Assembly: GCA_026709065.1 (NCBI GenBank)
Contig: JAPOTS010000043.1
Span: 1 to 64,000 of the forward strand
Source of the DNA: Bacteroidota bacterium
Lineage (GTDB): Bacteria; Bacteroidota; Rhodothermia; Rhodothermales; Bin80
DNA length: 64,000 nt
Reading direction: 5' to 3'
The notes under the pieces were generated by a model. It had not been told where the DNA came from. It worked only from the letters and a program-made list of their open reading frames with translations, and did no database searches. Below, piece by piece: positions 13,088 through 15,966 of this stretch (position 1 is the first letter of the stretch; each line of letters begins with the position of its first letter). The translations under genes and the position numbers were made by a program.

Positions 13088-13762
13088 GTGTAAATTTGAA
13101 TATAAGGTGAGTATTTCATCAGATCTACTGAATTTTACTCGTGGAATTTCACAACGAATGGCAGATGATGTATCGCGATTTATTCAATTTTCACAAATAC
13201 CATAGCTATGCCTGCAGGAAAGGTTTCGGTGAGTATACAGTAATTCCCAATAAGATAATAGTACTCATAAAGTAGGGGTTTTGCTCTCCAATCACAAAGA
13301 AAAATCACCAGTTTAACATTCTTTTGAAACAACTCTTAGGAGTTAGTGGAATGGCTATTATTATCTTCTTTTCTCAATCATGATGTATGAATGATTGATC
13401 TTTGTTTGCAGGCACTTCGGGATATTTGATCTCCAATTTACGATTCCCATGATCATGTTTAGTTTCTTGTGTGAATTTTAGTTCTGGCATTTATGAAAAA
13501 TGTGAGTTAATGATTCGCTAAAAAAGTTGAGCCTTCACGGGTAATCCATGAATTAGTTTAAAGCATCGAAGTAAACGTTACAGGTCTTCTGTCGTTATAT
13601 TTTCTTATGATGGTATTTAACATTCACATATCACCAGCATAGTTGATCTGCCTGTCTTAATGAACATAAACCATAGGGCGTGTTCTTGGTCAATTTAAAA
13701 TTATAGAAGTCCAATAGATAATCCTGAGAGTCAAATTTAGCTGTTTTGATCAGAATTACTCC

Positions 13763-15154
13763 ATGAAAATACTTATTGAAAATTTAGGTGTACTGAGAAA
13801 GGCACAGTTTGAACTGAGTGATTTGACCATCATTTGTGGTCATAATAATACGGGTAAGACCTATGCTACATATGCAGTGTTTGGCTTCCTATCAAATTGG
13901 CATAGATTAATGAGAGCAGAAGTATCCGATACAGAAATTTCACAGCTTATCAGTGATGGCGTAATTCGGATTGATATCACAAGCTATATAATGAATTCAC
14001 AAAATATTCTATCTGAAGGATGCCGCAGATATTCTGAGCAATTGCATACGATTTTTGCCTCGAGTTCAAAATCCTTTACCAATACTAATTTTCAGGTAGA
14101 ATTAGAATCTGATTTGAGTTCTGCTTTCGCAGCATCATTTGAGCGAAAATTAAGATCTCAACAGAGTGAATTACTCATGTTGAGCAAATCGGAGGGGAGT
14201 GATGTTCTTGAGGTATCTCTTTCCACAGAAGGAGAAAAAATTAAATTACCGTCTAGCATCATTGAGGATGTAATTTCTGAAGCCATTATTGAGATAATTT
14301 TTGGAAATTATTTCCCATCTCCATTTATTGCTAGTGCAGAGCGCACTGGTGTTTCAATATTTATCAAAGAATTAGACTTTGCCAGAAATCGCTTAGTTCA
14401 TGAAATTGGTAGAGCCGAAAAAGAAATAGATAATCAAGATATGTTTTTGGATTCATACAGTGACTATGCTTTACCAGTAAGGGCAAATCTAGACTTTACT
14501 CGCAGATTGGGAGAGATAGCCAAAGAAGAGAGTTTCATAGCTCAAAAGCATCCTCATATTCTTGATAAATTCGCTGATATTATTGGTGGTGAATTTCTTT
14601 CTGGAACCAATAAATCTATTTATTTTAAGCCCAGAGATAATGGAATAACGTTAACTATGGGGGAAAGCTCTGGGGTAGTTAGGTCAATGCTTGATGTCGG
14701 GTTTTATCTCCGTCATATTGCAAAGCCAGGAGATTTGCTCATGGTTGATGAACCTGAATTGAGTCTTCATCCTGAAAATCAATGTAAAGTGGCACGTCTG
14801 TTTGCATGGTTGGTCAATCTTGGAATTCAAGTATTTATAACCACACACAGTGACTATATCATTAGGGAATTCAACACACTGATCATGCTTTATCAGGAGG
14901 AACCCTTTCTTAAACAAATTGCTACAAGGGAGGGCTATTCTTGTGAAGAATTAATTGATAAGAAGCTTGTCAAAGCCTATGTTGCTGAACGAGATAAGAG
15001 GCAACCTAAACATCATACAACAAGGAATATTAATCACACACTCATAGCTGCCGACATAAGCTATGAACAAGGAATTGATGCTCGTAGCTTTGATAAGACA
15101 ATAGTCAGGATGAACGAGATTCAGGAAGCCATTCTCTGGAGAGATGGAGAATGA
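13763..15154 (+). CDS. AAA/ABC-type ATPase (AAA_15/OLD-like), candidate conflict-system ATPase
   Basis: Walker A ICGHNNTGKT, signature-like GESSG, Walker B LLMVDEPELSLHPENQ, H-loop FITTHSDYIIREFN; long helical insertion between Walker A and Walker B. Confidence 0.85.
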   Translation: MKILIENLGVLRKAQFELSDLTIICGHNNTGKTYATYAVFGFLSNWHRLMRAEVSDTEISQLISDGVIRIDITSYIMNSQNILSEGCRRYSEQLHTIFASSSKSFTNTNFQVELESDLSSAFAASFERKLRSQQSELLMLSKSEGSDVLEVSLSTEGEKIKLPSSIIEDVISEAIIEIIFGNYFPSPFIASAERTGVSIFIKELDFARNRLVHEIGRAEKEIDNQDMFLDSYSDYALPVRANLDFTRRLGEIAKEESFIAQKHPHILDKFADIIGGEFLSGTNKSIYFKPRDNGITLTMGESSGVVRSMLDVGFYLRHIAKPGDLLMVDEPELSLHPENQCKVARLFAWLVNLGIQVFITTHSDYIIREFNTLIMLYQEEPFLKQIATREGYSCEELIDKKLVKAYVAERDKRQPKHHTTRNINHTLIAADISYEQGIDARSFDKTIVRMNEIQEAILWRDGE

Positions 15155-15726
15155 GTTCTGATTTTTATATTCTACGTAAACTGATCAGTGATGATGGATT
15201 GATCTTTGTCAAGAAGAACGATTATGGGGAGTTTTTTCTTGAATTGAGTGAGCCGGGGATCGGAGGAACTGGATATAAAATTCAATTACTTAATCCACCT
15301 ACGGATACAATCGCCATCAAATCGGATCTGTTTCCTCCTCCCCGCAGGATCTTTAAAAACACCAAGGGTGAATGTAGGAGAGCAGATTTTGTGATCCTTT
15401 CAATGGATAATAAAACCAACTCGATGGTTTATATTGAATTGAAACTCGGTAACTCAGAATCTGAGTCGAAAATCATACAACAGCTTCAAGGATCCAAATG
15501 TTTTATGGACTACTGTCGTGCAATCGGTCAAACCTTTTGGAAGGATCCGAAATTTCTTGAGAAAAATAATTACAAAGAGCGTTTCGTTACCGTAAAAAAT
15601 ATTGGTGCAAATAAAAAAACCTTAAAACATAGGCGAAAACCTGTTTTGCATGACACCCCTGAAAATATGCTCAAAATAAGTACTCCACCAAGTCAACGCC
15701 TACAGTTTAAAGAGTTATTGGCCTAG
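15151..15726 (+). CDS. Putative PD-(D/E)XK nuclease-like partner of the upstream ATPase
   Basis: Start codon overlaps ATPase stop (ATGA). RRADFVILSMDNKTNSMVYIELKLG fits the D...(10-20 aa)...ExK nuclease core; family not certain. Confidence 0.6.
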   Translation: MSSDFYILRKLISDDGLIFVKKNDYGEFFLELSEPGIGGTGYKIQLLNPPTDTIAIKSDLFPPPRRIFKNTKGECRRADFVILSMDNKTNSMVYIELKLGNSESESKIIQQLQGSKCFMDYCRAIGQTFWKDPKFLEKNNYKERFVTVKNIGANKKTLKHRRKPVLHDTPENMLKISTPPSQRLQFKELLA

Positions 15727-15966
15727 TAAGTAATTGGTTTGAAATCATTAGCTGTGAAGCAAATTTTCAAGAGAAAGCGGTTTAATCAAGATTGAGAATC
15801 ATTAGCATGCTCCATACAACTCCTTTTTGGAGATCGTATGATTGAAGAACCTTAGAAAGTAGCCTCTCATTTATGTAACATTCTGAGGTCACAATCAAAA
15901 ATCCAGACATTAATGGATATGACTCATGAATTTTAATTTGAAATATATTTTTCTATACATTTAGGA

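Follow-up and report, generated by a model that had tools for sequence, protein, structure and literature searches.

An OLD/ABC-type ATPase and its putative PD-(D/E)xK partner in a Rhodothermales genome match the catalogued candidate defence system PDC-M47

WonAB, from the WASA-1 prophage of Vibrio cholerae, is the best-studied system of the ATPase plus PD-(D/E)xK plan. It is a two-gene operon encoding an OLD-ABC ATPase (WonA) and a PD-(D/E)xK variant (WonB), with accessions AWB73975.1 and AWB73976.1; protection needs both genes, is abolished by ATPase mutants and by the WonB K71A mutation, and takes the form of an infection aborted after phage DNA replication begins (PMC12137116). Overproduction of WonB is toxic only with active WonA, DNA remaining intact and translation stopping, and an rRNA or tRNA target has been proposed by its authors (PMC12137116). 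PD-T4-4 of Escherichia coli is one of the systems of Vassallo et al. (2022), each of which lowered plating of its selection phage (PMC9519451); its proteins have accessions RCO57999.1 and RCO57988.1, and a review places it among the PD(D/E)XK systems (PMC10952713).

Here we analyse a gene pair in a stretch of 64,000 nucleotides (hereafter the window) from a Rhodothermales genome (GCA_026709065.1, contig JAPOTS010000043.1). The pair had been read from the letters alone as a two-gene operon of an ATPase and a putative nuclease (hereafter the original prediction). ORF calling recovers both reading frames at the positions and lengths then given (Table 1), and the claimed Walker A, Walker B and H-loop motifs and ATGA overlap were all located in the sequence. 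This overlap probably couples the translation of ATPase and partner, and among 58 homologous pairs counted, 49 overlap by 1 or 4 bases. The flanks, described as long, AT-rich and non-coding, are indeed AT-rich (33.9% and 30.8% GC), but their length had been overstated, the downstream one spanning only 240 bp compared with 675 bp upstream. No Rfam match or regulator gene is present in the upstream stretch, and promoter-like sites are no more frequent there than in shuffles.

Table 1. Features of the gene pair and its intergenic flanks (window coordinates).
Feature	Position	Strand	Description	Basis
ATPase gene (A)	13763..15154	+	463 aa, OLD/ABC-type	ORF calling
Partner gene (B)	15151..15726	+	191 aa, 22.0 kDa, pI 9.5, predicted PD-(D/E)xK nuclease	ORF, PADLOC, conservation, AlphaFold2
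ATGA stop/start overlap	15151..15154	+	ATPase stop with partner start	Sequence
Upstream intergenic stretch	13088..13762	.	AT-rich, 675 bp, GC 33.9%	
Downstream intergenic stretch	15727..15966	.	AT-rich, 240 bp, GC 30.8%; from the pair to a convergent polysaccharide biosynthesis (flippase-like) gene	

The ATPase carries Walker A (GHNNTGKT, residues 26-33), Walker B (VDEPELSLHP, residues 328-337; core 328-331, including E330) and an H-loop (THSDYI, residues 361-366) with histidine H362. The sequence SAERTG (residues 191-196) is conserved, ESSGVVRS (residues 301-308) is signature-like, and F443-D444 in the C-terminal extension is invariant by column conservation. In Pfam the protein matches AAA_15 (5.5e-26) and AAA_21, and its model retrieves PtuA, Rad50 and related chains in Foldseek (best E 1.8e-9, prob 1.00). 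Among PADLOC-DB models, the match to PDC-M47A spans nearly the entire protein (9.9e-196; protein 1-460 on model 1-459 of 461), as does that to PD-T4-4_A (1.2e-150; protein 1-459 on model 1-456 of 460); AriA (2e-26) and the weaker PtuA and GajA are all far behind PDC-M47A. The partner matches PDC-M47B at 3e-53 (protein 3-190 on model 2-183 of 186) and, weakly and over residues 76-190 only, PD-T4-4_B (2.4e-5).

The window pair is thus near certain to be a member of PDC-M47, a candidate listed in PADLOC-DB, where PDC is taken by us to denote a phage-defence candidate. Both proteins lie nearly full length on PDC-M47A/B, the genes are adjacent and on the same strand, and no difference from the catalogued type was found. 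The original prediction had considered the pair possibly an undescribed subtype, and this has to be given up: PADLOC-DB models exist for both proteins, an E. coli relative, PD-T4-4, has been validated (PMC9519451), and the mechanism of WonAB, a system of the same plan, has been studied (PMC12137116). The alternative raised at the time, that the pair had already been catalogued under another name, is what the PADLOC search found. No paper naming or testing PDC-M47 was found in the searchable literature.

The partner carries RRADFVILSMDNKTNSMVYIELKLG, within which the putative catalytic residues stand out: D79 (65/65), E96 (65/65), K98 (64/65) and Q111 (65/65) are identical in the partner sequences. 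Structure prediction of the 191-aa protein, which had been proposed as a check, yielded an AlphaFold2 model (57 sequences) of mean pLDDT 90.6, in which D79 starts strand 80-85, E96 and K98 end strand 90-98, and Q111 lies in helix 105-129. A beta(D)-beta(ExK)-alpha order is expected of the PD-(D/E)xK core, and conservation and model together put D and (D/E)xK on neighbouring strands with a helix after them, which fits this core. By sequence, the partner itself has no match in Pfam, NCBIfam or PHROGs and no useful match in the PDB; members of its family match HSDR_N, VRR_NUC and PDDEXK_9 of Pfam weakly. Against PDB chains, Foldseek gave no match to the partner model at E <= 0.001. FokI was among the entries (E 0.12, prob 0.51), and a search of a viral structure library returned a PD-(D/E)XK protein with prob 0.92 but E 0.015. 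Metallo-beta-lactamases, the top Foldseek entries, were discarded as noise (TM about 0.16, rmsd 7-10). Since Foldseek provided no significant PDB match, what speaks for a nuclease is the motif, the topology and the family links, and on these the partner is likely a PD-(D/E)xK nuclease. The general character assigned to the pair was borne out: a sensor ATPase combined, in the manner of a defence system, with a PD-(D/E)xK-type effector belonging to neither the Toprim nor the HNH kind.

We used the partner alignment to query 85,462 species genomes and obtained 63 further loci, whereas a single-protein scan of genome contigs with the partner alone returned nothing. This search also addressed the co-occurrence of the ATPase family with the partner: in 62 of the 63 further loci the ATPase gene immediately precedes that of the partner on the same strand, the exception (L108) being a partner fragment alone. 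Conservation of the partner motif and linkage to the ATPase are far more than chance, given the near-invariance of D79, E96 and K98 and this pairing. Distances in A and B correlate (Mantel r 0.87, a value reached by 0 of 5000 permutations), although shared host ancestry may contribute to this. The records among the loci comprise cyanobacteria, gammaproteobacteria, Desulfobacterota-type MAGs, Latescibacterota, Gemmatimonadota, a planctomycete and Rhodothermales. Within the window's own order, the partner occurs in 5 of 114 genomes, all of one genus. Some BREX, Pycsar, type IIG RM and Fic genes lie near the 63 loci (E <= 1e-10), counts that lack a proper background control and for which we claim no enrichment.

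Viral contigs contained no relative, and phage records none for the partner itself. More distantly (30% in A), Vibrio phage 1.202.O, a P2-like phage, carries a PD-T4-4-like pair between a CI repressor and a DNA breaking-rejoining gene (L153, 2501-4532), and in E. coli and Klebsiella plasmids of 4.3-4.8 kb (L045, L046) such a pair is nearly the sole cargo. Placement in a phage or on tiny plasmids is typical of defence cargo.

Several loci differ from the intact two-gene layout. A second intact PDC-M47A ATPase, 57% identical, is encoded in the window's own genome (L008/L152, G000:C132:11381-12763), and neither a partner gene nor a recognisable trace of one adjoins it; this ATPase might act in trans with the window partner or be a decayed copy. 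In L111 (3702-3896, G007:C128) the partner is cut to 64 residues, ending before the catalytic motifs, and the ATPase is intact, while in L049 and L065 the ATPase frame is split in two pieces and the partner is open, reflecting either real decay or assembly error. L042 (G008:C11, 57-1743) holds another ATPase, distantly PD-T4-4_A-like (9.8e-27), with an overlapping ORF that carries NADFLFASEDDGGWILVIELKKG, a related D...ExK motif. A single sample series, jk18x, also yields related pairs, in MAGs of Rhodothermales and Latescibacterota (L051, L052, L054, L111). One Latescibacterota copy (48%) resembles the window pair as closely as does one copy from the window's own genus (46%), which suggests transfer.

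In the window, the pair is flanked by a TonB-receptor/DUF4249 unit and by the convergent polysaccharide-biosynthesis gene (Polysacc_synt_3), the latter being present in all ten searched genomes of the genus, among them that of the window. In genome G009, ribonucleotide-reductase-like and polysaccharide-biosynthesis genes (names by inspection) flank a different, subtilisin-like gene instead, so the interval is variable. No exact empty site was found. The pair has a GC content of 37.1% against 42.9% for the window (z = -2.4) and unusual tetranucleotide use (rank 11 of 311), both consistent with acquisition. No insertion repeats were found around it, the repeats present being weak two-copy matches, and Rfam returned nothing across the whole window. 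The PADLOC search revealed no other clear defence gene around the pair in the window; matches of other window genes to DpdF, PsyrA/T and similar models, judged collectively, look to us like cross-matches of core helicases or phosphoribosyltransferases.

The pair is real and well conserved, and its system type is already catalogued, with relatives shown to stop phage. Our preferred reading is a member of the PDC-M47 branch of a PD-T4-4/WonAB-like anti-phage group, and we consider it reasonably probable that it is an ATPase-gated nuclease serving as an abortive-infection device. The analysis shows which genes these are, that they are paired, that the motifs are conserved, and what the fold topology and family links are; complex formation, trigger, target and abortive outcome we infer as follows. 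The ATPase would most likely dimerise on ATP and bind the small nuclease via its C-terminal extension; a product of phage infection would act as the trigger; and the nuclease would then cut nucleic acid, arresting growth of the infected cell ahead of phage release. The target favoured by analogy with WonAB would be RNA (tRNA or rRNA), leading to translation arrest. We put an abortive, RNA-directed mode of action slightly ahead of even.

The main rival is direct immunity, in which the nuclease cuts phage DNA in a restriction-like manner and the cell survives. PD-(D/E)xK enzymes are mostly DNases, which counts for this rival, as do the weak HSDR_N, VRR_NUC and PDDEXK_9 matches of the family. It also has precedent, in that direct immunity is reported for 7 of 11 Vassallo systems whose components are DNA-binding/cleavage-like (PMC9519451). 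However, there is no methylase or self-marking gene beside the pair, and WonAB leaves genomic DNA intact and halts translation (PMC12137116); we regard direct immunity as unlikely, if a serious competitor. A toxin-antitoxin pair, with an ATPase that merely neutralises the nuclease, would suit the tight overlapping operon and the small basic effector. We find it very improbable in view of the large, motif-complete ATPase, the partnerless ATPase that persists intact in the same genome, and the toxicity of WonB, which depends on the presence of an ATPase-active WonA (PMC12137116). Least credible of all is a DNA-repair or housekeeping pair without a defence role: ABC-ATPase/nuclease pairs such as Rad50-Mre11 exist, Rad50 is among the ATPase Foldseek matches and most of the surrounding window has a housekeeping character, but the spread is patchy (few genomes of the order yet many phyla), relatives reside on small plasmids and in a phage, and frameshifted or truncated copies occur.

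If active, the pair would show how common this growth-arresting design is beyond the proteobacteria examined to date. The analysis also places a listed candidate system, apparently untested, in a genome of Rhodothermales type and in many other phyla, and ties PDC-M47, PD-T4-4 and WonAB into one ATPase-nuclease group.

PARIS, Septu and Gabija share the ATPase superfamily with the window pair, as seen in the AriA, PtuA and GajA matches and in the Foldseek hits to PtuA chains, but their effectors are Toprim or HNH proteins, and the window partner is neither by any family search. In PADLOC-DB it matches only the PDC-M47B and PD-T4-4_B models, and not AriB, the Toprim partner of PARIS; family searches found no HNH match such as PtuB of Septu would give. 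Of Gabija, neither the GajA ATPase-Toprim fusion (the 463-aa ATPase has no Toprim match) nor the UvrD-like GajB (the 191-aa partner has no helicase match) is represented.

PD-T4-4 is closer. Its ATPase model is matched over its full length (1.2e-150), the partner has the same motif order, and the profile of the partner aligns with that of PD-T4-4_B-type partners at an hhalign probability of 97.2, an alignment in which D and [E/D]xK line up. The HMMs of the two groups cross-match. Where the ATPase is more distant, as on plasmids and in genome G260, its partner is matched by PD-T4-4_B models and weakly by those of PDC-M47B, and has D, [D/E]xK, Q and Y in the same order (1 of 5 rows reads DQK). 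The cross-matching models, the kept motif order and the profile alignment indicate that PDC-M47 and PD-T4-4 are branches of one group. They differ in that the window partner, homologous to PD-T4-4_B yet diverged from it, matches those models only weakly (2.4e-5), in that the window branch has a strict E-x-K where PD-T4-4_B-type partners have D/E-x-K, and in the GECKRAD motif and conserved cysteines that mark the window branch. C75, C117, C122 and H167 of the partner are near-invariant in the PDC-M47 branch and were not seen in PD-T4-4_B-type partners; they are a possible metal or redox site. It is doubtful, though conceivable, that the branch has an effector chemistry or target distinct from PD-T4-4 and WonAB, with GECKRAD and these four residues forming a metal/redox site that gates cutting.

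With WonAB, the window pair shares its plan, a two-gene operon that combines an OLD-ABC ATPase with a PD-(D/E)xK variant, and the Walker A lysine, Walker B glutamate and H-loop histidine occupy similar positions (K34/E300/H333 in WonA, K32/E330/H362 here). By contrast, the Walker A to Walker B distance is 32 residues longer in the window ATPase, and WonB, compared by its published description, is 16.1 kDa against 22.0 kDa for the window partner. The tie between PDC-M47 and PD-T4-4 is one of sequence, conserved residues and gene order, whereas that to WonAB is drawn from the published description only.
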